Source of the DNA: Verrucomicrobiales bacterium
GTDB taxonomy: Bacteria > Verrucomicrobiota > Verrucomicrobiia > Limisphaerales > JACDHS01
Reading direction: 5' to 3'
Assembly (NCBI GenBank): GCA_028293445.1
Contig: JAQGOU010000220.1
Span: 1 to 46,774 of the forward strand
Length of the DNA: 46,774 nucleotides
The translations under genes and the position numbers were made by a program. Shown piece by piece: positions 3,919 to 40,935 of this stretch (position 1 is the stretch's first letter; every line of letters begins with the position of its first letter). Under the pieces are notes generated by a model that was not told the origin of the DNA, did not search any database, and saw only the letters and a program-made list of their open reading frames with translations.

Positions 3919-6669
3919 TTGTTGTACATGAAAAAAACCTTTCTCTCCACCATTCGTGTTTGTCTGTTTGTTGCGTTGGCCACCATGGCCGCAGACGCCG
4001 CCCGCCTGGTGGTCCCATCCTTCGATGTGCGTTATTTGTCGTACACAAATTATAGCACCGGCAACGGCCCTTCTGGACTTTGGCTGGCCAACATTCGCGG
4101 TAAAAAGACATGGAGAGATCTTGTCGTCGCCAATAAGAACGACAACACCGTTTCGGTGCGCCTCTGCCGCGATGCCGGAAACTTTAATGTCACAGCAGTC
4201 TCTTATGCGGTCGACCTTCAACCAGTGGCCGTCATTGCCGCTGACATGAACCGAGATAACTACGACGATGTGATTTCCGCCAACTTTGGCACAAACACCA
4301 TCAGCCTCCTGCAAAATCAAAATAACAACACGTTGGGCACAGCAACGAATTTTGTCGTCGGCACAACACCCAATCCGGGACCAATCGCGTTGGCAGCAGG
4401 GAACGCGGCAGGGTCTGGACGACAGGATATCTTCGTGGCCAATCTGCTCGAGAATTCAGTGACCGTTTTGACCAATGCCGGCAATTGCTTTTTGATGCTC
4501 CGCAGCAACATTTCCGTGGGAACCGGGCCGATCGGCATCGCGTTCGCCGATTTCAACAATGACGGCACAGGTGACATCATTACGGCCAACACCAACGGAA
4601 CGATCAGCATTTTGCAAGGTTATGGTGCCGCTCATTTTCAGGCTTACAGTAATATAACAATGTTTGCCGGCGGCGACCCCCAACCGTCAGCCCTTGGGGT
4701 CGGCGACTTCAATATGGATGGCCGAATCGACCTCGTGGTGGCGAATTTTAATTCAAATAGCATCACAATCCTGACGAATAGCCTTGGAAATACATTTCTC
4801 GTCAGCAGCAACTATGACGTCGGCAGCAATCCTCGCGCCTTGGTCCTTCGCGATCTTAATCAAGATGGCATCACCGATATTGTGGTCGCGAACGAAGCCA
4901 GCACCAATGTCCATATTTTCCTGGGCAATCGTGATGGAACGTTCTCCTTGAACCTGGTCAAGAGCGTGGCGTCAAATCCAGTGGGCGTTGCCGCAAGCAA
5001 TTTCAACGCCGACAACATGAGTGACATCGCTGTGTTGTGTGAAAGCAACTCCACGTCGATTCTTCTATATGACCTGCCGCTGGTCTATAATGACACGATC
5101 ACAGCTTACGAAGACACTGCCAAAAGCATCACCCTGACCAGTGCACAGTTGACCAACGCCGCGTTGACTTACAGTATCGTCACCGGCCCGATTCACGGCG
5201 GATTAAGCGGTTCAGGCACAAGTTACACCTATACCGGGAGCACCAACTATTTTGGCACCGACAGTTTCACGTATAAGGTCAACGATGGATTAGTCGATTC
5301 CGCCACCGGCACAAACACGATTGCTGTTGTAGCAGTGAATGATGCGCCGAGCTTTAGTTTTTCCACGAATGTCATCACGGCAAACAAGTTTGCTGTCCTG
5401 ACGTATTCAAATTTCATCGCAAGCTCTTCGGCAGGTCCGGCCAATGAAAGCAGCCAGATTGTTTCCTATCTGACAACCTCGCTCGGAACCACGAACCTGT
5501 TCCTCACCCGGCCGACGATTCGAACCAACGGCGTTCTGACGTTCAGACCTTCAACGAATAACTTCGGCACCTCGACCGTCACGATTATCGCCCAGGATAA
5601 TGGCGGAAGAAGTTACGGCGGCACCAATCAATCCCTGTCCCAAACATTTACCATTGAGAACCCGGGACCGAACCCGTATCTCACGTTGAAAGGGACGTAC
5701 AATGGATTGTTTTCTGAAGCGGCAGGCGTTTCATCCAACAGCGCGGGGGCATTCACCTTCACGCTCTCGAACATCGGAAGTTACAGTGGGATATTATCAA
5801 TGAAGAATCTTCGTTACGCTTTTTCGGGACAATTTGATACGGCCGGCAACGCGCAATCCTTGATTAACAGCGCCACTCTAACCTGCGCGATCAACTTTCA
5901 ACTCGATGTTTCGAACAATACCGATCAGGTAACGGGAACCGTGACGAACGGCGTCTGGACTGCGGATCTGCTGGGCGACAAATTGACGTTTAATGCCACC
6001 ACCAACCTCGCACCGCTTGCGGGTAAATACACGCTCCTCATTCCTGGAGAGGTCGGTTCAACTAATTATCCCACCGGAGACGGCTATGGCGTCTTTACCA
6101 TCTACGCCGCAGGAACAGTTTCCTTCAGTGGCGCTCTTGCAGACGGCACCGCCGTTGCGGCGACAACTTATCTCTCCAAAAATGGTAAGATACCTCTCTA
6201 CGTTCCCCTGTTTGCTGGACGCGGAATCTTAACAGGCTGGATTTCGGTCACGAACGACATTACCAATCGTGTGGACGGAACACTTAGCTGGTCAACGGGC
6301 GATCATTACGTCCCGGGATGGAACACGAACGTTGCAGTCATCGGGTCCAGTTACACTGTTCCAAACACAAACACGCATTTCTTGGCTTTGACCAACGCGG
6401 TAATCACTCTGCGAAATGGCAATCTGACAACCACGCTGACTAACAACGCCACTGTCTTGACGAACAACAACGTCACGATGGCTCCAAACACGAACAGAAT
6501 CGCTGTGGTTTTTTACCCAGCGACAGGAACCGTTGGGGGCAGCTTCAAACACCCCGTAACGTTACAGACGATCCAACTGAAAGGGACTGTTTTGCAGCAG
6601 CAAAAGAAAGTCGAAGGCTTTTTCAATGCCTCGGGCGTGTCTGGTCATTTGGAATTAGCGGCTCCGTAA
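3919..6669 (+). CDS. Secreted FG-GAP/VCBS-repeat protein with an Ig/cadherin-like segment
   Basis: Repeated ADFNNDGTGDIITAN / GDFNMDGRIDLVVANFNSNSITIL / RDLNQDGITDIVVANEAS units; then TNYFGTDSFTYKVNDGLVDS (Big_9/cadherin-like). Confidence 0.85.
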   Translation: MLYMKKTFLSTIRVCLFVALATMAADAARLVVPSFDVRYLSYTNYSTGNGPSGLWLANIRGKKTWRDLVVANKNDNTVSVRLCRDAGNFNVTAVSYAVDLQPVAVIAADMNRDNYDDVISANFGTNTISLLQNQNNNTLGTATNFVVGTTPNPGPIALAAGNAAGSGRQDIFVANLLENSVTVLTNAGNCFLMLRSNISVGTGPIGIAFADFNNDGTGDIITANTNGTISILQGYGAAHFQAYSNITMFAGGDPQPSALGVGDFNMDGRIDLVVANFNSNSITILTNSLGNTFLVSSNYDVGSNPRALVLRDLNQDGITDIVVANEASTNVHIFLGNRDGTFSLNLVKSVASNPVGVAASNFNADNMSDIAVLCESNSTSILLYDLPLVYNDTITAYEDTAKSITLTSAQLTNAALTYSIVTGPIHGGLSGSGTSYTYTGSTNYFGTDSFTYKVNDGLVDSATGTNTIAVVAVNDAPSFSFSTNVITANKFAVLTYSNFIASSSAGPANESSQIVSYLTTSLGTTNLFLTRPTIRTNGVLTFRPSTNNFGTSTVTIIAQDNGGRSYGGTNQSLSQTFTIENPGPNPYLTLKGTYNGLFSEAAGVSSNSAGAFTFTLSNIGSYSGILSMKNLRYAFSGQFDTAGNAQSLINSATLTCAINFQLDVSNNTDQVTGTVTNGVWTADLLGDKLTFNATTNLAPLAGKYTLLIPGEVGSTNYPTGDGYGVFTIYAAGTVSFSGALADGTAVAATTYLSKNGKIPLYVPLFAGRGILTGWISVTNDITNRVDGTLSWSTGDHYVPGWNTNVAVIGSSYTVPNTNTHFLALTNAVITLRNGNLTTTLTNNATVLTNNNVTMAPNTNRIAVVFYPATGTVGGSFKHPVTLQTIQLKGTVLQQQKKVEGFFNASGVSGHLELAAP

Positions 6670-8993
6670 TCGGTCGTCGAGAATTTCTCGCCTCGCCGAA
6701 ACTGGAACGGCTGGCTTTCTGTGATGGCGAGAATCAGGCTTGAGAAACGAAATTCGTTCCGTGCCATTCTCGCCACGATCTCGTCGACAGCACAGCGATC
6801 GTAAACTTCGAGACCGCGCCCTAAAGCGTAGGTCAGCATTTTTTCCGCGAGACAACGGACAAATTCATCACGTCGCTTTTCGAGGAGAAATTTCCTGAGC
6901 GCTCCAACCCCATCGATCTTTTCTCCGGTCGCAAATTCTCCACTCGCATCGACCGGGAACTTCCCGTCCATTGTCCGCCATGAACCAATGGCGTCGAAAT
7001 TTTCCAGGGCGAACCCAATCGGATCCATGCGGGCGTGGCACGAAGCACACGCTGGATTTTTTCTGTGTTCCTCCAGACGTTGACGCAGAGAGGTCGATAC
7101 GGTCGGGCCTTTCTTATCGTCCAACGGCGGGATGTCAGGAGGAGGCGGCGGCGGCGCGGTTCCCAGTAGATTCTCGAGAATCCATTTACCGCGCTTCACC
7201 GGAGAGGTGCGATTGGGATTGGAAGTCAACGTCAGAATACTGGCCTGGCTGAGCAACCCGCCGCGTTCAGACCCTTCCAAATGGACACGTTGAAAATTCT
7301 CTCCCGTAACCCCTTTGATCTGGTAATGGCTCGCGAGCCGTTGATTCAGAAAGGTGTAATCTGCCGCCAAAAAATCGAGCACGCTTCGATCTTCCTTGAG
7401 GATAGAGGCAAAAAAAAGTTGCGTCTCATCCTCCATGGCGACCCGCAGCGATTCGTCGAAGGATGGGAACTCATCGGAGTCCGGGGCGGCCTGGCGCAAG
7501 TGGCGCAGCTGTAACCACTGTCCGCAAAAATTTTCCGAGAGAGCATCTGCTTTCGGATCTTTCAACATGCGTTCCACTTCTGAAACGAGATTCTTCTGCA
7601 GCGTATGATTCTTTGCTTCGGCAAAGAGTTTTTTGTCGGGCATGCTGCTCCAGAGGAAATAAGAGAGACGGGAGGCAAGGGCAAAGTCATCAATACGATG
7701 GATCTCGGACGAATCGTTTGGCTGCGGTTGAAATTCACCACGAAAGAGAAAACCGGGCGAGACCAGCACAGCTTGTAAAGCCAATTGGACACTGCCTTCA
7801 AAATGTTCACCATTTTTCATCCCCAGACTGTAGAACTGGAGTAATCGCTTGATTTCATCCTTCGTGGCAGGTCGACGATAGGCCTGATCCACGAATCGCC
7901 CGATGATTTCGCCTGCATACGCGCGCTTGTCGGTTTGTGCGGTGATTGGTTTCGGAAAAATCCGCAGATGACTTTCCGGGTACTGCGGCGGCCCCGCCGG
8001 ACCAACGACGTCGACGAAATCAACGTAGAGATTGCGATCATTCTTTCCAGGTTCCTCCTTCGGGTCTCGAAAGTTGTTCAGGTACGCCACTGAGATTTTG
8101 TATTCACCCGGCTGCAAATGGAGGCGTGTTCGATAAATCGATGGTTCCTCCTGCAACGCACTAACCTTGAAAACAGCGATGCTTTTATCGTTGAGACTAA
8201 CGTCCATCTTGGGGAGTTCCGGTCCGGCTTGTTCACCGTAGGCCCTTGTGCGGATGGTGTAGTCCCCTTCCACAGCAATGGTCATGTTGGTAAAGATTGT
8301 CACCTCCCGAAAGAGTCCCATGATCCCGTTCTTTTGATCCCTTGCCTGATTGTTGCTCCGGGAAAATCTTTCGGCCTGAAACCGGCGCACGGGACCATTT
8401 GTATCGGGTTGCTTCAGAATGGCAGTATCGAGAATCTTTTGCGCTGCTTTGAAATACTTCTCGAGAAGGATCGGTGACAAGGAAAGCGAATCCCCAATGT
8501 TATCGAAACCATAACCTGAGTCATCCGCAGGAAAGTCCTCAGCCGGATTAAAATCCACCCCGACCAGATCGCGAATGGTGTTGTTATATTCGGCGCGATT
8601 GAGACGGCGAACGGTCACCCGGCCCGGATCGGGTTTATCGCAATCACATTGGAAAACCTCCTTTTGAATCCATGAAACCAGCAGGTGCCGCTCTGCATCA
8701 CTCGGCTGCGGCTTGTCTTCCGGCGGCATTTCCCTGGTTTGCACATGGTGCATGACCAATTCCCACCTTTTGGGCTCCTTGAGAATAGCCGCGATATCCG
8801 CAAACGACTCGAGCGACAGATCGCCTTTATGTTTTTTATCGTTGTGACACCCGTAGCAGTAGCGGCTGAGAAGCGGTTTGATCTGCTTTTCGTATTTAGA
8901 TGCACCCCGTTGAGTCGGTGCCGGATTGGCCCCGAAACTGGTGTTCCGGACCAAAAGGATCAAAATAAAGATGGCAAACAGGCGCGCGGACAT
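6645..8993 (-). CDS. Planctomycete/verrucomicrobial-type cytochrome protein (DUF1587/1592/1588/1585/1595 architecture)
   Basis: CYGCHNDKKHKGDLSLESF near N-term; RLNRAEYNNTIRDLVGVDFNPAEDFPADDSGYGFDNIGDSL; ACASCHARMDPIGFALENFDAIGSWR; YALGRGLEVYD. Confidence 0.93.
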   Translation of the reverse strand: MSARLFAIFILILLVRNTSFGANPAPTQRGASKYEKQIKPLLSRYCYGCHNDKKHKGDLSLESFADIAAILKEPKRWELVMHHVQTREMPPEDKPQPSDAERHLLVSWIQKEVFQCDCDKPDPGRVTVRRLNRAEYNNTIRDLVGVDFNPAEDFPADDSGYGFDNIGDSLSLSPILLEKYFKAAQKILDTAILKQPDTNGPVRRFQAERFSRSNNQARDQKNGIMGLFREVTIFTNMTIAVEGDYTIRTRAYGEQAGPELPKMDVSLNDKSIAVFKVSALQEEPSIYRTRLHLQPGEYKISVAYLNNFRDPKEEPGKNDRNLYVDFVDVVGPAGPPQYPESHLRIFPKPITAQTDKRAYAGEIIGRFVDQAYRRPATKDEIKRLLQFYSLGMKNGEHFEGSVQLALQAVLVSPGFLFRGEFQPQPNDSSEIHRIDDFALASRLSYFLWSSMPDKKLFAEAKNHTLQKNLVSEVERMLKDPKADALSENFCGQWLQLRHLRQAAPDSDEFPSFDESLRVAMEDETQLFFASILKEDRSVLDFLAADYTFLNQRLASHYQIKGVTGENFQRVHLEGSERGGLLSQASILTLTSNPNRTSPVKRGKWILENLLGTAPPPPPPDIPPLDDKKGPTVSTSLRQRLEEHRKNPACASCHARMDPIGFALENFDAIGSWRTMDGKFPVDASGEFATGEKIDGVGALRKFLLEKRRDEFVRCLAEKMLTYALGRGLEVYDRCAVDEIVARMARNEFRFSSLILAITESQPFQFRRGEKFSTTDYGAANSK

Positions 8994-28085: not shown

Positions 28086-28775
28086 ATGTCGCCAAATCCG
28101 AAAATTGTTCAACTGCGCCAGCAGCTTGCCGAGAGATTTCCCGGCTTGCGCACGAACATCGGCGATCTCCCCGCCCGCACCCACGACGGTTGGCCGACGG
28201 GTCTCCAACAAATCGATCATTTGCTCGAAGGTGGTCTTAATAAATCGGCGATTACAGAAATTGTCGGGGAGAAAAACGGTTCCGGTGGTGCGCTTGTCAT
28301 TTCATGGTTATTGCGAAAGGCGGCGGCTGAAAATCAAATCTTCGCGCTCGTCGATGGACAGGACTCCTTTGATCCGACCGGGTTCGATCAGAAAACTCTC
28401 ACGCGGCTCTTGTGGATCCGTTGCAAAACAGCCGATCAGGCGTTGAAGGCGACCGATCTCGTGTTGCGGGATCGTAACTTGCCGTTGCTCATCCTGGATC
28501 TGCAACTGAATCCTTCGACGCAACTGCGCAAGATTCCGTCGTCGATCTGGTACCGGCTCCAGCGAATCGTGGAAGCGACTTCCACCATTTTTGTCGTCTT
28601 CACGCCGCACGCGATGGTCGGCTGTGCGCAGTCGCGATTAAATCTGCAATCGCACTTTGCCCTGAACGCGCTGGAGAAAAATCAAAGCGAGCTGTTGGGG
28701 AAATTGAAAGTCGAACTGACGCAACATCGCCTGCATGTCAGCCACACCGAAGAACAGGTCGCGAAGGCTGGATAG
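28086..28775 (+). CDS. imuA: ImuA-like (RecA/SulA-related) mutasome protein
   Basis: RTHDGWPTGLQQIDHLLEGGLNKSAITEIVGEKNGSGGALVISWLL; upstream of imuB and dnaE2. Confidence 0.85.
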   Translation: MSPNPKIVQLRQQLAERFPGLRTNIGDLPARTHDGWPTGLQQIDHLLEGGLNKSAITEIVGEKNGSGGALVISWLLRKAAAENQIFALVDGQDSFDPTGFDQKTLTRLLWIRCKTADQALKATDLVLRDRNLPLLILDLQLNPSTQLRKIPSSIWYRLQRIVEATSTIFVVFTPHAMVGCAQSRLNLQSHFALNALEKNQSELLGKLKVELTQHRLHVSHTEEQVAKAG

Positions 28776-28883
28776 TTTGTCGCGACCCGCGTCTCCACGG
28801 TTGCTGTTTTCAATTCCACAGAAACCACGAATATCAATGCACACGAATAGCGGCATCGACTGCAACAGAGACTGGATGCTATT

Positions 28884-28920
28884 CCCCCTCTCCCAGCGGG
28901 AGAGGGCCGGGGTGAGGGAG
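28884..28920. repeat. Dispersed palindromic repeat (CCCTCTCCC..GGGAGAGGG..GGTGAGGG)
   Basis: CCCCCTCTCCCAGCGGGAGAGGGCCGGGGTGAGGGAG in the imuA-imuB gap; near-identical copy at 33314-33348. Confidence 0.85.
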
Positions 28921-29037
28921 ATCGCTTCCTTACAAATTGTGCGTTCGAATCCCGTTAAAAATTCAGCAACCGCCTCCCTGTTTTCATTCGTGTCGATTCG
29001 TGCTGTGCCTTCGTGGCTCAACTAACCGTTTGAAGCA

Positions 29038-30516
29038 ATGTTCGCCGTTATTTTCATTCCCGACTTTTCGCTGCAGGCCGTGCTGCGTCACGAGCCACAG
29101 CTTTGGTCGCGTCCCGTGGCCATGATTGAGCAGGGGGAAACGAAAGCGCCGATTTTCCAACTCACGACCACCGCCCGCGCCGCCGGTGTTTGCGAAGGAC
29201 TCACTTCGACCCAAGCCCTGGCACGTTGCAGTAACATTCTGATCAAAAGTCGTTCGCTGTCGCAGGAACAAACCGCGCAGGAAACACTGCTGCAAACGGC
29301 TTACCAGTTTTCCCCGCGCCTGGAAACGACCGCCAATGGCGTCTGCACCATGGATCTGCAAGCGTTACCAGTGGAAACAAAAGGACACGGCGCTTTTCAA
29401 GCATGGGCGGAAAAACTGTTACTCACATTCGCTCCTTTGCATTTGCGCGCGCAGATCGGCATCGCCGCCACTCCGAATGTCGCACTGCACGCAGCGCGTT
29501 GCGCGAAGCCGATTTTCATCGTGCAGGATTCCGTCGACTTCATCTCCGCCCTGCCCGTCCAAAGTCTTGAACCCACGCCGCAGATTTCTGAGATTCTACA
29601 TCGCTGGGGAATTCGCACCGTCGGCGCGTTCACCGCTTTGGGCAAAGACAAAATCGCCGAGCGTCTTGGACCCGAAGGACTGGAGTTGTTCGATGGCGCT
29701 TCTGTCGAAGAGATTCGTCCACTGGATTTAATTATTCCGTCGGAACATTTTTCCGAGACGATGGAGTTCGAAGTTGAAATTGAATCGTTAGAGCCGCTCC
29801 TTTTCATCCTGAACCGTTTCATCGAACAACTCTCGCAACGATTGATGGCTTCTCAGTTCGTCGCGCAAGAACTTCAGCTGCGCCTTCGACTTTCCTCTGG
29901 CGACAGCTATGAGCATGTCTTTGCGGTCCCCTCGCCCACCGCCCATACCATGGTCCTCTTCCGCATGCTGCAAACGCACCTGGAAAATGTGCGTGCCGAT
30001 TCGGGGATCATTGCCCTCGCACTTTCTGCGACACCGACTCGCGCCGAGAATTATCAGTTTGGTCTGTTCGAGACCGCATTGCGTGATCCCAACCAATTTT
30101 CCGAGACGACCGCTCGCTTAAGCGCACTTTGCGGCAATGACAATGTTGGCACGCCCGTTTTGCAGGACAGTCATCGACCTGATGCTTTCAAAATTGAAAA
30201 GGTGCGGTTCGAATCGGCTTCAACTCTCGTCACACAACCGCTCCCGGCGAACACCTATGGGCTTTGCCTGCGACGCTTTCGTCCCACGTTTAACGCAGAT
30301 GTAGAACTGCGACACGGCACACCGGTGTTTATCAGTTCGCTCAAATTAAACAGCCCGATCGAAAAAGTGGCCGGTCCCTTTCGTAGTTCGGGCGATTGGT
30401 GGGAACAACAAAAACTTTGGACGCGCGAGGAGTGGGATGTGGAAATACGCAACGGTACGATTTATCGCATTTATCGCGAGAACCAGAATTGGTTCATCGA
30501 AGGAGTTTACGACTGA
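29038..30516 (+). CDS. imuB: ImuB-like catalytically inactive Y-family polymerase homologue
   Basis: MFAVIFIPDFSLQAVLRHEP (no DxD), LLTFAPLHLRAQIGIAATPNVALHAAR, RRWGIRTVGAF-type HhH region, sits between imuA and dnaE2. Confidence 0.9.
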   Translation: MFAVIFIPDFSLQAVLRHEPQLWSRPVAMIEQGETKAPIFQLTTTARAAGVCEGLTSTQALARCSNILIKSRSLSQEQTAQETLLQTAYQFSPRLETTANGVCTMDLQALPVETKGHGAFQAWAEKLLLTFAPLHLRAQIGIAATPNVALHAARCAKPIFIVQDSVDFISALPVQSLEPTPQISEILHRWGIRTVGAFTALGKDKIAERLGPEGLELFDGASVEEIRPLDLIIPSEHFSETMEFEVEIESLEPLLFILNRFIEQLSQRLMASQFVAQELQLRLRLSSGDSYEHVFAVPSPTAHTMVLFRMLQTHLENVRADSGIIALALSATPTRAENYQFGLFETALRDPNQFSETTARLSALCGNDNVGTPVLQDSHRPDAFKIEKVRFESASTLVTQPLPANTYGLCLRRFRPTFNADVELRHGTPVFISSLKLNSPIEKVAGPFRSSGDWWEQQKLWTREEWDVEIRNGTIYRIYRENQNWFIEGVYD

Positions 30517-33500
30517 TGAGCTACGTCGAGCTTCATGCCCGTAGTGCGTTCAGCTTTTTGCGCGGAAGTTCGCAGCCGGAACATATCGCGGAAGCAGCCG
30601 CGCAATTGGAAATGCCAGCGATGGCGCTTTGCGATCGTGACGGGGTTTACGGTGCGCCACGATTTTTTGGTAAGGCAAAGGAATCTGGCTTGCGACCGAT
30701 TGTCGGCGCAGAACTCACGATGGAGGATGGCTCCATCCTACCGGTCTTGGTGGAGAATCGCGCAGGTTATCAAAATTTATGCCGCCTTCTCACGCGCGCT
30801 CATCTCCGCAGTGAAAAGGGAAAGAGTAAAGTGGGCTGGGCGGAACTACCGGAGTTTAAGGAAGGATTGGTCGCGCTGACCGGTGATGAGGATGGGCCGC
30901 TTGTCTCTAGCATTCGGAATGAGCAAGGGAATGAAGCGCACTCGGCCATACAAGGTCAGAGCCTCCTGACGTCGGCTGCTACGAGTTTGGAACGCCTGCT
31001 TGGGACTTTTGGACGGGACCACGTCTTTGTCGAAATCCAACGCCACCATCTTCGCGGCGAAGAACGCGTCAACAGCGCCCTCGTTCAACTCGCAGACAAC
31101 TATAATCTTCCATTGCTCGCCACAAATGGCGTTCTCCATGCGACGCCCTCGGGACGTCAGGTCCTCGACGTTTTCACCTGCATCCGTCATCACACTCATC
31201 TCGACAACGCCGGAAAGTTGTTGGCGCAAAACAGCGAACGCTTTCTGAAAAATGAAAAGCAGATGCGCGAACTGTTTCGTGATCTGCCCCAAGCGATTGA
31301 GAACACATCGCGTCTCGCTGAACGTCTCCATTTTTCGCTGGATAACCTCGGCTACGAATTTCCGCAATATGCGGTCCCCGCGGGACACAACGCGGATTCA
31401 TTTCTGCGTGAGCAATCTTTTGCCGGGGCCCGTAAACGTTACCAGGGTGAAGTTCCCGAGAAGGTTCGCGGCCAACTGGAAAGCGAACTCGCACTGATCC
31501 AAAAGCTGGGCGTGTCGGGATATTTTCTCATCGTCTGGGACATCGTGGAGTTTTGTCGCGAACAAAACATTATGTCGCAAGGGCGTGGCAGTGCCGCGAA
31601 CAGTTCCGTCTGCTATTGCCTCGGCATTACGAACGTGGATCCGTTAAAGTTTCACACCCTCTTCGAACGCTTCCTCAGCGAAGGCCGCAAAAATTCCTGG
31701 CCGGATATTGATATTGATTTACCCAGCGGCGACCGACGTGAGCGAGTGATCCAGGAGGTTTACAAACGCTACGGCAAACATGGAGCGGCCATGACCGCCA
31801 ATGTCATTACTTATCGCGGACGCAGCGCGGCGCGTGAAATCGGCAAAGCTCTGAACATCGCTCCGGATGTGCTCGATCGTTTCTCCAATCTGTTTGCGAA
31901 TGGCGATTTTCCTCACACCCTCAATTTCACCGCGCAAATGGAGAAGGCCGGTTTGCCCGACGGACATCCGCGCGCCCTGGCATTTACGACGCTTTATCAA
32001 CAGATGCGCGCGTTGCCTCGTCATCTCGGGCAGCACTCAGGTGGCATGATTATTTGCCAAGGCAAGCTGGATTCAGTGATGCCGCTGGAAAATGCGTCGA
32101 TGCCTGGCCGTGTGGTGGCGCAATGGGACAAAGACGATTGCGAAGAGCTTGGCATCATCAAAGTAGATTTCCTCGGCCTCGGCATGATGTCAGTGATTCA
32201 GGACAGCGTGGAATTAACGCGGCAGTTGGGTCGGCCAATCGATCTTGCTCATCTTCCCGAAAACGACGCGAAGACGTTCGAAATGATTTGTGCAGCGGAC
32301 ACGATCGGTGTTTTCCAAATCGAAAGCCGCGCGCAGATGGCGACGTTGCCGCGCATGAAACCGGAAACCTTCTACGATCTATGTATTGAGGTAGCGATCA
32401 TTCGTCCGGGTCCGATTCAAGGCGGCTTAATGCATCCTTATTTGAGACGTCGCGCCGGAAAAGAAGAGGTCACTTATTATCATCCCGATCTGGAGCCGGT
32501 GCTCAAACGAACTCTTGGCATTCCACTCTTTCAGGAACAGATGCTGGAGATGGCGATGAAGATGACCGATTTCACCGCGTCGGAAGCCGAGGAGCTGCGC
32601 CGCGCACTGAGCTTTCATCGGTCCGAAGAAAAGATGATCAAGGTGGAAAAAAAACTTCGCGACGCCTTACAGCGCAAAGGGTATACGCCGAAGGTAATTG
32701 AGGATGTTGCGACGGCCGTCACGTCATTTGCGCTCTATGGCTTTCCCGAATCACATGCGATCAGTTTCGCGCATCTCGCCTACTCAACGGCTTACCTGAA
32801 AGCCCATCGTGCGCCGGAATTTTACGCCAGCCTGTTGAACAATCAGCCAATGGGCTTTTATTCCCCAGCCACCATCGTTAAAGACGGCAAGCGACACCGA
32901 TTGAAATTCCGTCCGGTTTGCGCGGAGAAATCAGACTGGCTTTGCACAATCGGAAAAGATGACTCGATCCGTCTCGGCTTTTGCATTGTGCGGGGAGTGA
33001 ATGAACAGAATGTGCGCGAGATGTTAACGGAACGGACGCGCACTCCATTTGCATCGATGGAAGATTTCAAATGGCGAACCTCCTTCAGCAAAGAGGCGTT
33101 GCGAACACTAGCTGAGATCGGGGCGTTAAATGTGTTGGCCAAACATCGGCGAGATGCGATGTGGGAAGTGGAAAAGGAGATGTTGAATGACGATTTGTTT
33201 TCGTTAGTTGAATTGAAGAGGGGAAACGCTCGCCCTCACCCCCGAGGAGAGAGGGATTTGATGGCCGCCTTTTCACAGTATGTAACTTCCTCGAACAGTG
33301 GCCGCATACCATTCCCTCTCCCAGCGGGAGAGGGCCAGGGTGAGGGAGAAAATGGGAATCAACAAGAGGACTGCCCTCTCTCTCCCATGACGCCTTCCGA
33401 ACGTCTTCACGCCGATTACGCAGGCATGGAATTAACCACGGGTCCACATCCCATGGCGTTGCTGCGAGAACAATGCGATGCGCTCAAAGTCTGGCCCGCG

Positions 33501-33806
33501 AGCGATTTGCCCCAGGCCAAAACCGGCGACACCATTCGCGTTGCCGGCAATGTTATTTGTCGTCAGCGCCCCGGCACCGCTAAAGGTTTTGTTTTCATTT
33601 CGTTGGAAGACGAAACCGGGATCAGCAACGCGATTGTTGCTCCCAAGCTGTTTGAAGAACTTCGCCTGCTCATCACGCAGGAATCGTTTCTTCTGATTGA
33701 AGGTAAGCTGCAGAATTCCGAAAATGTGATCCATATTCGAGCGGAGAAAATCGAGCGATTGACCCACGGCGATCTGGCGGGCAGTGCTTCCTACGACTTC
33801 CATTAA
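30516..33806 (+). CDS. dnaE2: Error-prone DNA polymerase III alpha subunit (DnaE2/ImuC)
   Basis: MSYVELHARSAFSFLRGSSQPEHIAEAAAQLEMPAMALCDRDGVYG (PHP); GRGSAANSSVCYCLGITNVDP; WPDIDIDLPSGDRRERVIQEVY; start overlaps the imuB stop (TGATG). Confidence 0.95.
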   Translation: MSYVELHARSAFSFLRGSSQPEHIAEAAAQLEMPAMALCDRDGVYGAPRFFGKAKESGLRPIVGAELTMEDGSILPVLVENRAGYQNLCRLLTRAHLRSEKGKSKVGWAELPEFKEGLVALTGDEDGPLVSSIRNEQGNEAHSAIQGQSLLTSAATSLERLLGTFGRDHVFVEIQRHHLRGEERVNSALVQLADNYNLPLLATNGVLHATPSGRQVLDVFTCIRHHTHLDNAGKLLAQNSERFLKNEKQMRELFRDLPQAIENTSRLAERLHFSLDNLGYEFPQYAVPAGHNADSFLREQSFAGARKRYQGEVPEKVRGQLESELALIQKLGVSGYFLIVWDIVEFCREQNIMSQGRGSAANSSVCYCLGITNVDPLKFHTLFERFLSEGRKNSWPDIDIDLPSGDRRERVIQEVYKRYGKHGAAMTANVITYRGRSAAREIGKALNIAPDVLDRFSNLFANGDFPHTLNFTAQMEKAGLPDGHPRALAFTTLYQQMRALPRHLGQHSGGMIICQGKLDSVMPLENASMPGRVVAQWDKDDCEELGIIKVDFLGLGMMSVIQDSVELTRQLGRPIDLAHLPENDAKTFEMICAADTIGVFQIESRAQMATLPRMKPETFYDLCIEVAIIRPGPIQGGLMHPYLRRRAGKEEVTYYHPDLEPVLKRTLGIPLFQEQMLEMAMKMTDFTASEAEELRRALSFHRSEEKMIKVEKKLRDALQRKGYTPKVIEDVATAVTSFALYGFPESHAISFAHLAYSTAYLKAHRAPEFYASLLNNQPMGFYSPATIVKDGKRHRLKFRPVCAEKSDWLCTIGKDDSIRLGFCIVRGVNEQNVREMLTERTRTPFASMEDFKWRTSFSKEALRTLAEIGALNVLAKHRRDAMWEVEKEMLNDDLFSLVELKRGNARPHPRGERDLMAAFSQYVTSSNSGRIPFPLPAGEGQGEGENGNQQEDCPLSPMTPSERLHADYAGMELTTGPHPMALLREQCDALKVWPASDLPQAKTGDTIRVAGNVICRQRPGTAKGFVFISLEDETGISNAIVAPKLFEELRLLITQESFLLIEGKLQNSENVIHIRAEKIERLTHGDLAGSASYDFH
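33233..33348. repeat. Pair of inverted dispersed repeats read through in frame within dnaE2
   Basis: CCCTCACCCCCGAGGAGAGAGGGA (from 33233) and CCCTCTCCCAGCGGGAGAGGGCCAGGGTGAGGGAG (33314-33348). Confidence 0.75.
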
Positions 33807-35470: not shown

Positions 35471-37642
35471 CTAGTGGATGTATTGAAACTCCGGAGTCGA
35501 AAAGAGCGCCCATAGCAGGTCGCCCATGGCCTCCTTTGTTTCCGATGTCCCCTGCTCCTTTGCCGAATCGCCGGTGCCTTCCTTTTTGGCCGGAGTTTTT
35601 TCCACAGCAGTTTCCAGATACTTGATCGCGAGCAACCGCTCCTGTTTCCCAGGCGCACGGTTTAACGCGAGCCAATAGATTCTATCGACGACATGATCGA
35701 ACTGTTCCTCTTTGGCCAAATCGTTCACCAGATCGCCGCTGTAAACCAACTTGTGCAGCTCCGTTCCATTCAACAGTTCCAATGATTGCACGACCGCCAC
35801 ATCATCCGGTCGTCCAGTGCTCACTTCGCTATGTGCAGACGGCCGTCCGAGCGAACGCGTCAGTGGAGTAGAACCTTTGTCGAGATACGTGCGATTCTCA
35901 TTTTTCCACGTCTTCGACGTCGAAGCGCGGATACTGTCGATCAATTGCTCAGCTGTCATGCGGCGCAATGTCGGTGAACGGAAGTAACGCGGTTCTTTGG
36001 GCTTCTGCACATCGAAGTGATCCTCGCCCTTGGCATTATAGGCCAATTGATACGTGCGGCTGTTTAAGATGAGCCGAATGGTGTGCTTGATATCGTAACC
36101 GTTACGGATGAAGTCCTGCGCCAACCACTCCACCAACTCCGGGTGACTCGGTAATTGGTCGAGACGGAAATCATCGACGGGTTCAATGAATCCGAGACCA
36201 ACGTAGCGTTTCCAAAGGCGGTTCACGATCGTCTTGGCAAAACGCGGATTCGTCGGATCGACGATCAACTGCGCGACGCGATGGAGCCGATTTGTCAGAT
36301 CCTTCGGCACGTCCGTGGGCAGCCCCGGCAAATCGAACGGAAATTTTGCGTCGATCATCTGACCACTTTTCTTTTCACAACGAATGAGCTCGAGATCGTG
36401 CGGCGCAAACATTCCTGCGAACGCAGCAAAACGGGCTTGCGGCCATTCCTTGTTCAGAAAATGACTGTGGCAACTCGCACATTTCATTCCCGTGCCAAGG
36501 AAGACCTGTCCAACATTGGCCGCGCTCTGCAGCGTCTCCATGTGCTCTTCGTTCTTGATGTAAGCGCTCACGACACGATGGCCGTTCGGTTCGAAATATT
36601 TCGGGACGCGATAACCGGGCAGCGTCGGATCAATCAACTCAGAAACGAAAAGGTCGAACGCTTTGTTCTTTTTAAAGCTATCGAGAATCCAGTCGCGATG
36701 ATTCCCGCGCATTCCGATGCCGCCATTCAGTTCAACGATCGAACTGCACAAGGCATCTTCCCAAAAGGGCGTCCAATGCGCAGCGTAATCGTCGTTGCGG
36801 GCGAGCAGTTCGTCGATGAGCTTCGCGCGCTTACCGGGAGCTTTGTCAGCCACAAACTTTTGCGCTGCCTCTGCGGGAGGAATCAAACCAATCAAATCGA
36901 GATAGGCGCGACGGACGAACGTTGCATCATCACAGAGCGCCGGAGACTTCTTGGCCTCGGGAATTTTTGCGTCCTTCCATTTAGCGGAAACGAAAGAGTC
37001 GATGGGATTTACGATCTCGGATTTACGAATTACGGGCTCCGGGACTTTTCCAATCGGCGGCAAGAAGGTCGTGCGAAACTGGCGCATAACAGCGAATCGT
37101 TCCTCCTGGGAAAGATTTTCGTACAATAAACGATTGAGAAGTTTTTGCGCATCCTCATTGAGATTGCCAAAGGAACTGTCCCCGGTTTTCTGCGCCGCTA
37201 TTTCCGCGGAGTCATCTTTCGCACCGGCAGAGATCCAGAGGCGAATGAGATGAAGTTCGTTTTCGGATAAGGCGTCCGAACCTTTGGGCATCTGCGGCCC
37301 ATCGGCCAGTCCACGAATGTATTGCACTACCGCGCTCTCGTCGGGTTTGCCGGGAACAACTCCGGGCCCGGCTTTCTTCCCCTTTTGTTTGAGCGCTTCG
37401 ACCGTCGTCGTATCGAACCCGCTCTTCTTGTCCTCGGGCGAATGGCATTCGATACAGTTGTTAACGAGAATCGGTTTGATATCGCGCGCGTAGCTCACCT
37501 TCGCCGCTTCCGGTTTAATGATCGGGCGAACTTTAATTTCCGTCTTCTTCTTTTCCGCAGCCTCGCTACGAGAAACAAACACAATCGAAACAGCCGCGAG
37601 AAGCCCTGAGAAAAGCAAACACTTCATTCCGCTTCGGTTCAT
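35471..37642 (-). CDS. Planctomycete/verrucomicrobial-type cytochrome protein (PSCyt1 + DUF1549/DUF1553)
   Basis: VNNCIECHSPEDKKSGFDTTTVEAL; RRAYLDLIGLIPPAEAAQKFVADK; GTGMKCASCHSHF; FAKTIVNRLWKRYVGLGFIEPVDDFR. Start taken at MNRSGMKCLLFSG. Confidence 0.93.
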   Translation of the reverse strand: MNRSGMKCLLFSGLLAAVSIVFVSRSEAAEKKKTEIKVRPIIKPEAAKVSYARDIKPILVNNCIECHSPEDKKSGFDTTTVEALKQKGKKAGPGVVPGKPDESAVVQYIRGLADGPQMPKGSDALSENELHLIRLWISAGAKDDSAEIAAQKTGDSSFGNLNEDAQKLLNRLLYENLSQEERFAVMRQFRTTFLPPIGKVPEPVIRKSEIVNPIDSFVSAKWKDAKIPEAKKSPALCDDATFVRRAYLDLIGLIPPAEAAQKFVADKAPGKRAKLIDELLARNDDYAAHWTPFWEDALCSSIVELNGGIGMRGNHRDWILDSFKKNKAFDLFVSELIDPTLPGYRVPKYFEPNGHRVVSAYIKNEEHMETLQSAANVGQVFLGTGMKCASCHSHFLNKEWPQARFAAFAGMFAPHDLELIRCEKKSGQMIDAKFPFDLPGLPTDVPKDLTNRLHRVAQLIVDPTNPRFAKTIVNRLWKRYVGLGFIEPVDDFRLDQLPSHPELVEWLAQDFIRNGYDIKHTIRLILNSRTYQLAYNAKGEDHFDVQKPKEPRYFRSPTLRRMTAEQLIDSIRASTSKTWKNENRTYLDKGSTPLTRSLGRPSAHSEVSTGRPDDVAVVQSLELLNGTELHKLVYSGDLVNDLAKEEQFDHVVDRIYWLALNRAPGKQERLLAIKYLETAVEKTPAKKEGTGDSAKEQGTSETKEAMGDLLWALFSTPEFQYIH

Positions 37643-37713
37643 GTGATTGAAATAATGGACGCAAATGCGTCTCTGCGCAGTGATAAAATATCCTCCCCTC
37701 ACGGCCGCTACCA

Positions 37714-38004
37714 TCAATGAGTCCATCGCCAAAGTTCAAATGACCTCTCGAAAATTTCGAAGGCGCAGGGAAGTGTGAGCAGCAAAATACACCAACGCCA
37801 GCGAGTCCTGGCTGCGATGATTAAAGTCACCGCCGCCACCACGTGACGGAGTCCGAGGCCGAGAAATGAATAAACTCCTTTCGGATTGGAGAGTGAAAGC
37901 CCAGCCAGCGCATACCACACTAAACAGACGAGGCCGAAGGCGAAGGCGAACATGAAACCCGCGATTGCCATGAGTTTTCTTGGTGACGTGCCAGTCGTTT
38001 GCAT
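37714..38004 (-). CDS. Small membrane protein
   Basis: MQTTGTSPRKLMAIAGFMFAFAFGLVCLVWYALAGLSLSNPKGVYSFLGLGLRHVVAAVTLII. The ORF 5' extension only translates an attC-like remnant. Confidence 0.6.
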   Translation of the reverse strand: MQTTGTSPRKLMAIAGFMFAFAFGLVCLVWYALAGLSLSNPKGVYSFLGLGLRHVVAAVTLIIAARTRWRWCILLLTLPCAFEIFERSFELWRWTH

Positions 38005-39071: not shown

Positions 39072-39100
39072 GCCTAACGAACCAGCTCAGCCACGCGGCG
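39072..39100 (-). other. Half attC-like remnant (family B, opposite end)
   Basis: GCCTAACGAACCAGCTCAGCCACGCGGCG matches the left end of family B sites (GCCTAACGAAACCAGCTCAGCCAGCCCG). Confidence 0.7.
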
Positions 39101-39494
39101 GAAAACCAAGTTTAGGCCGCTTAAGCAGGCAGGCCAGATAGGCTCCTGCCGTGATGTCGTAGGTTCCGCAGAATCCAGGCCACCAGACTGGAACGCCTGG
39201 ATTAAATATTAAACCGTGATGAATGAAATCGAAAAGACCGTGACCAATTAGTCCGGCCACGACCCACCAGAGCTTTTTTTTGAACCCGATCCCCGCGGCA
39301 AGCAGGAACAACACAATGGGTAAAGATTCAGCAAGGAGTGCATGGGTTGACCCTGCGATGGTCGCGAACAATGCATACAATAATGCGATTGCAATCAGCA
39401 CCGTAGGATAAAAGGAACGCTCCCGGTCGAATCCAATGGCGGTAGCACCGATTGAAATGCTCAAGGCAAGAAAGAGGCCGATCAAATATTCCAT
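39087..39494 (-). CDS. Polytopic membrane protein, unknown function
   Basis: MEYLIGLFLALSISIGATAIGFDRERSFYPTVLIAIALLYALFATIAGSTHALLAESLPIVLFLLAAGIGFKKKLWWVVAGLIGHGLFDFIHH. Confidence 0.7.
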   Translation of the reverse strand: MEYLIGLFLALSISIGATAIGFDRERSFYPTVLIAIALLYALFATIAGSTHALLAESLPIVLFLLAAGIGFKKKLWWVVAGLIGHGLFDFIHHGLIFNPGVPVWWPGFCGTYDITAGAYLACLLKRPKLGFPPRG

Positions 39495-39532: not shown

Positions 39533-40045
39533 TCAAATCCATCTTCGCACGGTAGAGCAATACGCCCTGAATTCGTCACCAAAGAGGGATGCCAGGGCCC
39601 GCTCTTCCGGTTTGATCTGAAAACGATTCATGTAAAGAACGAAGGCGGGCAAACCAAAAAAGGAGAGAAACGTAGCCGTCAGCGCAGCCCAACCGGCCAA
39701 TATCAAAACGAATCCCAAATACATGGGATTGCGCGTGTGGCGGTAGACTCCTGATCTGACCAGGGATGAAGATGATTGAGGTTTTGTCGGATTAACAGTG
39801 GTTTTTGCCCATTTGAATTCCAAGAGGCCAAGTGCGCATACGCCGAGGCCCAACAACCCGAATAGGCCAGCCACGATTGTTTGAAATGCAAATTGAAAAT
39901 GGAATCCCGGGGCGTATGCAGATCCCAGCCACATCAAAAGAGCGATGATGATCACAAGAGCAACGGGAGGGATTTTCAATTCGAGAACATGCACGTCGGG
40001 GCGAGTATGCATAAAAGACGATTGATTAAGGTTATCAAAATTCAC
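39533..40045 (-). CDS. Isoprenylcysteine carboxyl methyltransferase-family membrane protein
   Basis: LVRSGVYRHTRNPMYLGFVLILAGWAALTATFLSFFGLPAFVLYMNRFQIKPEERALASLFGDEFRAYCSTVRRWI. Confidence 0.85.
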   Translation of the reverse strand: MNFDNLNQSSFMHTRPDVHVLELKIPPVALVIIIALLMWLGSAYAPGFHFQFAFQTIVAGLFGLLGLGVCALGLLEFKWAKTTVNPTKPQSSSSLVRSGVYRHTRNPMYLGFVLILAGWAALTATFLSFFGLPAFVLYMNRFQIKPEERALASLFGDEFRAYCSTVRRWI

Positions 40046-40053
40046 GTTATTAA

Positions 40054-40084
40054 AGCCGCCTCAGCATTCCGCCAAGGCGGCTTC
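40054..40084 (-). terminator. Terminator/attenuator-like hairpin downstream of the Cys-rich peptide
   Basis: AAGCCGCCT...AGGCGGCTT, 9-bp perfect stem, 13-nt loop; followed on the minus strand by a weak T-rich stretch (TTTAATA). Confidence 0.55.
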
Positions 40085-40103
40085 ACGTGTCAACAACGGG
40101 AAC

Positions 40104-40250
40104 TTATTTGCAGCCGCAGGGCGAGCAGTTGCAGCGTCCGGACTCGCAAGTGCAGGAGCAGGAGCAAGAGCCGTTGCACTTGCACTTTTTGGCGGAATTC
40201 GCGCTGGCGTTCTTGGGGTCGTTCAATTGATTTTTGCGATTTGATTTCAT
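40104..40250 (-). CDS. 48-aa cysteine-rich, metallothionein-like peptide (not in the supplied ORF track)
   Basis: Manual minus-strand translation: MKSNRKNQLNDPKNASANSAKKCKCNGSCSCSCTCESGRCNCSPCGCK*; 10 Cys in the last 26 residues, mostly CxC spacing. Confidence 0.8.
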   Translation of the reverse strand: MKSNRKNQLNDPKNASANSAKKCKCNGSCSCSCTCESGRCNCSPCGCK

Positions 40251-40374
40251 GGTCATTGATTCTTGATTCTTTACGGCTCAGTCCGGGCATCGTTGCCCGC
40301 GGTTTACCGGCCGTTCAACAGAGCTAACGGACCAACCCAAATTCCATTACACTCTTTTTTTTGATCGTGAATTC

Positions 40375-40935
40375 TCAATGACAATGGGCTTTTTCGTCCG
40401 AGTCGTTGCAGGTGCAATCAAAGCACCCGTGGGCGCTGCACGCGCCACAATTTTGAGAAAGAGCTTTTCGAAGATGCTTCCGGGCCCGATGAAGCCTCAC
40501 GGTAAGGTTGTTCTTTGTAACTCCCAGCTTTGCCGCGGCCACATCCGGCTCGTGACCTTTCAAATCCACTTCCTCCAATAACTCGCGGTATTGCTCAGGC
40601 ACCAAAGGCAAGAGACGCCGAAAACATTTGCAGAGCTCGCGCCCGTCCTCTTCATCGGGAGTTTCAGGAAGCTGCTTTTCGAAACGCTCAAGCGCACGAC
40701 TGCGTGCCCCTTGTTTCCGATAAACATCAATAATTGATCTTCGAAGTATCCGATAAAACCAAGTGATCGTTTCTTCGTCGGTTTCAGGATGCCGGTCGGC
40801 CGCCAAAGCTTTTATCAAGCTGTCCTGCACGACATCTTCGGCCAAATGGTGATCGCCGAGGCGATTTCGAGCAAAAGCCACGAACACCTGTAGATTCTTG
40901 ATGATTGCAGCTTCGACGCCAGCCATGCGGCTCAC
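40375..40935 (-). CDS. ECF-type sigma-70 factor with a C-terminal Cys/His-rich tail
   Basis: HLAEDVVQDSLIKALAA (region 2), NNLTVRLHRARKHLRKAL (region 4), tail NCGACSAHGCFDCTCNDSDEKAHCH. AGGAG precedes the GTG start. Confidence 0.9.
   Translation of the reverse strand: MSRMAGVEAAIIKNLQVFVAFARNRLGDHHLAEDVVQDSLIKALAADRHPETDEETITWFYRILRRSIIDVYRKQGARSRALERFEKQLPETPDEEDGRELCKCFRRLLPLVPEQYRELLEEVDLKGHEPDVAAAKLGVTKNNLTVRLHRARKHLRKALSQNCGACSAHGCFDCTCNDSDEKAHCH

Follow-up and report, generated by a model that had tools for sequence, protein, structure and literature searches.

We found that a 48-residue cysteine-rich peptide, encoded on the minus strand of the Verrucomicrobiales contig analyzed here (the window, 46,774 nucleotides), probably acts as a metallothionein-like chelator of metal and is probably under the direct control of the CorE-like sigma factor encoded next to it. 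The preliminary description of this DNA had likened the peptide's cysteine pairs to those of metallothioneins from the sequence alone. That reading is now supported by the conservation of the gene, as well as by two elements absent from that description, a neighboring CorE-like sigma factor and a predicted promoter.

Translation of positions 40104..40250 (-), stop codon included, recovered exactly the 48 residues and ten cysteines that had been reported for this stretch. All ten cysteines are in CxC or CxxC spacing, while phenylalanine, tryptophan, tyrosine, histidine, isoleucine, and valine do not occur among the 48 residues. The cysteine fraction was the highest among 425 window ORFs of 30–80 amino acids (20% vs 15% for the runner-up), where the 20% figure counts the peptide from an in-frame alternative start, an ATG two codons upstream of the ATG at 40250. 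The ATG at 40250 is the start common to the relatives in the DNA alignment. The peptide has the properties of metallothioneins as a broad class, whose members are short, with about 15–35% cysteine in CxC/CxxC arrays and few or no aromatic and hydrophobic residues. No specific family had been recognized for it, and we also observed no match to any Pfam or NCBIfam model up to E = 10. The PF02069 profile did not match the peptide up to E = 10 (hmmscan), and a search of the genome with this profile gave nothing at the peptide locus, with all matches at other places below the cut-off. Searches of PDB sequences and of plasmid records with the peptide likewise returned no match.

A search of related genomes identified homologs of 44 amino acids in G019 and 45 amino acids in G090, at 57–63% identity. 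Both are encoded directly downstream of sigma factors that are 81% and about 77–78% identical to the window sigma, respectively. The only gaps in the peptide DNA alignment, of 3 and 12 nt, are in-frame, and the ATG is conserved; dN/dS was 0.27–0.32 in all three pairs, with only 43–44 codons compared. The cysteine pattern is retained in the relatives despite their diverged sequence. An antisense ORF at 39881-40327 (+) was considered and rejected, given that its frames are broken in the relatives. Because substitutions are biased toward synonymous changes, gaps are in-frame only, the ATG is conserved, and the antisense frames are broken, the peptide ORF is, by these comparative measures, a protein-coding gene under purifying selection. 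A lack of conservation had been named beforehand as the observation that would speak against the ORF; instead, we found homologs in two genomes, synonymous bias, in-frame indels, and a fourth, diverged relative.

The peptide is nevertheless rare. A sample of about 1,000 Verrucomicrobiota genomes contained three secure members and one diverged member, a count that leaves out the last weak matches of the class search (L181-L183). Searching the relatives with the single peptide yielded one good match, followed by cysteine-rich noise that mostly had stops or E near 1. The second-best match, L003, was discarded, as its frame overlaps an ordinary larger ORF. Two further weak matches, L147 and L149, were inspected and had neither a sigma factor nor a cysteine-rich ORF.

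Upstream of the peptide, at 40375..40926 (-), is an ECF sigma factor that is CorE-like, as judged from its domains and cysteine spacing. CorE is a copper-dependent ECF sigma factor whose family governs metal-handling genes (PMC3107203, PMC8999054). The window sigma matched Pfam Sigma70_r2 (2.3e-12) and Sigma70_r4_2 (7.7e-9), and this presence of regions 2 and 4 only represents the ECF architecture. The mechanical ORF opens with a GTG at 40935, from which the residues are numbered here, while translation more likely begins with the ATG at 40926. Its cysteines are at 102, 104, 163, 166, 171, 174, 176, and 185, compared to 120, 122, 181, 184, 189, 192, 194, and 206 in the Myxococcus xanthus sigma at locus L127, so that the offset is a constant 18 for seven of the eight positions. 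C102 and C104 form a CxC in the linker, with counterparts at 120/122 in the M. xanthus protein, and the C-terminus reads C163-x2-C166-x4-C171-x2-C174-x-C176, corresponding to 181/184/189/192/194. These C-terminal M. xanthus positions agree with the published CorE numbering (PMC3107203). In all ten aligned sigmas, C-x2-C-x4-C-x2-C-x-C is present at the C-terminus and C-x-C in the stretch that joins the two sigma domains. Cys189 of CorE, which has been described as the main residue in copper activation and is present where the sigma adjoins copper genes (PMC3107203), is retained in the window sigma as C171. No anti-sigma domain was found by Pfam in the proteins neighboring the sigma.

A predicted CorE-type promoter, TGTAAT-N15-CCGTTAGC, is located between the sigma and the peptide at 40323..40351 (-). 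We evaluated 80 relatives of the sigma (loci L050-L129), taken from a scan of GTDB genomes, and observed TGTAA-N15-nCGT near most of them, placed before the sigma, a divergent gene, or the next gene. Thirteen of the close relatives, belonging to Verrucomicrobiota and Lentisphaerota, lack the peptide; in these, TGTAAK-N15-GCGTTWGC precedes a divergent gene that, by the DPICGM, CPMHPE, and CPKCGM motifs at its N-terminus, starts with the metal-binding part of a heavy-metal P-type ATPase. The one such gene tested with Pfam was confirmed to have E1-E2_ATPase and the heavy-metal-binding HMBD. A matrix built from eight ATPase-linked sites, with the window's clade left out, placed its best window site at this same position, about 40323-40351 (-), with 13.6 bits vs 4.3 for the next site. 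The pattern TGTAATN15SCGTTWGC has no second exact copy in the 6.9-Mb assembly (89% complete); when two mismatches are allowed, motif counts are no higher than chance, and it is the exact match that carries the weight. The motif was also found in L050, L051, and L148. The window promoter motif is common to genes linked to related sigmas, and we infer that this promoter is used by this sigma. A maximum-likelihood tree of 44 sigmas groups the four peptide-linked ones into a single clade (96/77) nested in the ATPase-linked group, for which the simplest history would be that the peptide was gained once as a target. As a separate observation, CorE-like sigmas of Verrucomicrobiota, Chloroflexi, Acidobacteria, KSB1, and other groups have TGTAA-N15-nCGT beside them, which makes it a general promoter signature of this sigma group.

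The peptide gene is flanked by two RNA structures, each of which is single-copy in the genome. The leader of the mRNA (40251..40322, -, paired region about 40273-40314), about 75 nt between promoter and ATG, is strongly conserved and folds as a two-part hairpin. Of its 15 pairs, three changed on both sides, and 43 of 45 cells were paired across three genomes, compared to only 24–42% when the partner was slid by 1–3 columns. The pairing value was equaled by 45 of 500 shuffles. With three sequences, these results are suggestive of a conserved RNA structure, not proof of one. The second structure follows the stop codon at 40053..40083 (-), with a fold of -29.3 kcal/mol (z = -5.3 vs shuffles). In two relatives, 94% of its cells are paired, with two double-sided changes. 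The preliminary description had placed a 9-bp hairpin after the stop; the hairpin exists, but its stem is longer, at about 14 bp. It has no T run and no qualifying score as an intrinsic terminator, and Rfam gave only chance-level matches to either structure. The post-stop hairpin may act in mRNA stability or may set the peptide gene apart from the ICMT-like gene downstream.

The fourth member, in G658, was a weak match in the order search, where a CorE-like sigma is divergent from a 53-amino-acid peptide with 12 cysteines. The full motif, TGTAATGATTCGCCACGACGTGCGTTAGC, is 102 nt ahead of the peptide ATG, and this peptide, 41% identical to the one in the window, retains the cysteine pattern. 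The peptide strand goes on to encode an adaptor of the CusB/HlyD type and an RND pump (ACR_tran), which form a heavy-metal efflux cluster. The leader model was absent from the loci of the other sigmas, G658 included. We also observed in this region (L177, G658:C58:58000-70000) that RND efflux gene clusters flank the sigma/peptide pair on both sides and that the peptide and pump genes are separated by a gene for a 142-amino-acid, His-containing, membrane-like protein.

The next gene after the peptide in the window (39533..40045, -) encodes an ICMT/PEMT-type membrane methyltransferase-like protein, with Pfam matches to PEMT and ICMT. A 64% identical gene comes after the peptide in G090, and G019 has none. 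A small membrane protein comes next (39087..39494, -), with its start set by the G090 homolog, MEYLIG...; it is 71% identical to the gene at the same place in G090 and has no Pfam family above threshold. These two genes, which are common with G090 only, may be part of the peptide operon. Elsewhere in the window's own genome (89% complete), no HMBD match was found in a P-type ATPase, while an HMBD-containing CusB-type adaptor adjoins a TolC-like gene (L178, G000:C81). By eye, three consecutive window ORFs at 28086-33806 (+) look like an ImuA/ImuB/DnaE2 mutagenesis cassette, and two large ORFs at 6645-8993 and 35471-37732 (-) resemble cytochrome-c-domain proteins of Planctomycetes/Verrucomicrobia.

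The arrangement of these elements allows for other explanations. The peptide ORF could be a metal-sensing upstream ORF, with its cysteine codons or nascent cysteine motifs and the hairpins controlling the ICMT-like genes. Bordetella has cysteine-rich leader ORFs that respond to copper, the window ORF has a structured leader and a conserved post-stop hairpin on either side, and the ICMT-like and membrane genes come next in both the window and G090. However, G019 retains the peptide, leader, and hairpin without the ICMT-like genes, the downstream genes in G658 are quite different, the cysteine pattern is conserved across diverged sequence, and no T run follows the hairpin, making this explanation improbable. 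The small, cysteine-rich peptide and the methyltransferase-like gene, present downstream in two of the four loci, raise the idea of a RiPP or bacteriocin-like precursor that is modified by the membrane methyltransferase-like protein. We give this a very slim chance, given that PEMT/ICMT-type proteins are membrane enzymes, that the gene is missing in G019 and G658, that no maturase or exporter adjoins the window peptide, and that the peptide has a CorE-type control region.

We consider it least credible that the ORF is an untranslated chance frame and that the conserved element is an RNA leader or small RNA. While the leader is highly conserved and the ORF falls under the size cutoff of the ORF track, this would leave the synonymous bias, the in-frame indels of 3 and 12 nt, the conserved ATG and cysteine pattern, and the broken antisense frames in the relatives to be accounted for, along with a cysteine pattern that is retained in G658 without the leader. 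A main role of the peptide in feedback on the sigma, where it would compete for metal as an off-switch or serve as a chelator partner, is also very unlikely compared with bulk detoxification. The peptide always adjoins the sigma, both have cysteine clusters, and no anti-sigma factor was seen nearby, yet chelation alone would yield such feedback without a dedicated role.

If the peptide is a metal chelator under the CorE-like sigma, as we favor, a rise in cytoplasmic copper (or possibly Cd/Zn) would lead to metal binding at the cysteine-rich C-terminus of the sigma. The active sigma would then recognize TGTAAT-N15-CCGTTAGC at 40323-40351 and give rise to a short mRNA with the structured leader, from which the ten-cysteine peptide would be made and would tie up the metal through its CxC/CxxC thiolates. 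We infer metal binding by the peptide, the choice of metal, and metal-dependent activation of the sigma by analogy with CorE and with metallothioneins at large. Copper is the likeliest metal because Cys189 is retained and close relatives of the sigma adjoin heavy-metal ATPases, while Cd/Zn are a possible alternative because CorE2 responds to Cd/Zn (PMC8999054). Against the chelator reading, we counted the lack of a PF02069 match, the rarity of the peptide, and the presence of an ICMT-like gene without an obvious metal link. Since the genome is 89% complete, further members of the regulon may be missing from the assembly.

The metallothionein-like peptide and the CorE-like sigma are both parts of known kinds, while the pairing of the two was not found in the open-access literature searched. 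A more far-reaching proposal, which we put forward tentatively and consider rather unlikely as a whole, is that the peptide represents a new small-protein metallothionein family under direct sigma control, that the metal-dependent sigma exchanged an efflux pump for a chelator as its neighboring target, and that a new leader RNA, responsive to metal or stress, adds a second layer of control to the mRNA. Because gene callers and family models miss small cysteine-rich proteins, the number of bacterial metallothioneins is probably underestimated, and here the peptide could be identified through its control region where sequence alone fails. The occurrence of TGTAA-N15-CGT beside CorE-like sigmas in several phyla offers a route to further hidden metal-response genes. 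Within this sigma clade, the linked target varies among close relatives, being a pump in some and a chelator in others.

Compared to known systems, the window sigma resembles M. xanthus CorE (formerly ECF44, now ECF238) in its two sigma domains, its linker CxC, the identical spacing of its cysteine-rich tail, and the lack of an anti-sigma neighbor (PMC3107203, PMC8999054), but its identity to the L127 protein of M. xanthus is no more than about 38%. Targets reported for CorE comprise a multicopper oxidase, P-type ATPases, and a heavy-metal-associated protein, with no metallothionein-like peptide among them (PMC3107203). The Verrucomicrobiota divergons of a CorE-like sigma and a heavy-metal P-type ATPase (L052-L065) have the sigma clade and the promoter motif in common with the window. 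In those divergons, the motif points away from the sigma into the ATPase gene, whereas the window motif follows the sigma gene and precedes the peptide, with a structured leader. Like the bacterial metallothioneins SmtA/BmtA (PF02069) and mycobacterial MymT, the peptide is small and cysteine-rich, with CxC/CxxC pairs and no aromatic residues. It differs in having a basic, cysteine-free N-terminal part and no histidine, and neither PF02069 nor any other Pfam or NCBIfam model matches its sequence. Finally, MymT is likewise made under a copper regulator, RicR (PMC10141476), and the predicted control of the window peptide is by a sigma factor instead of a repressor.
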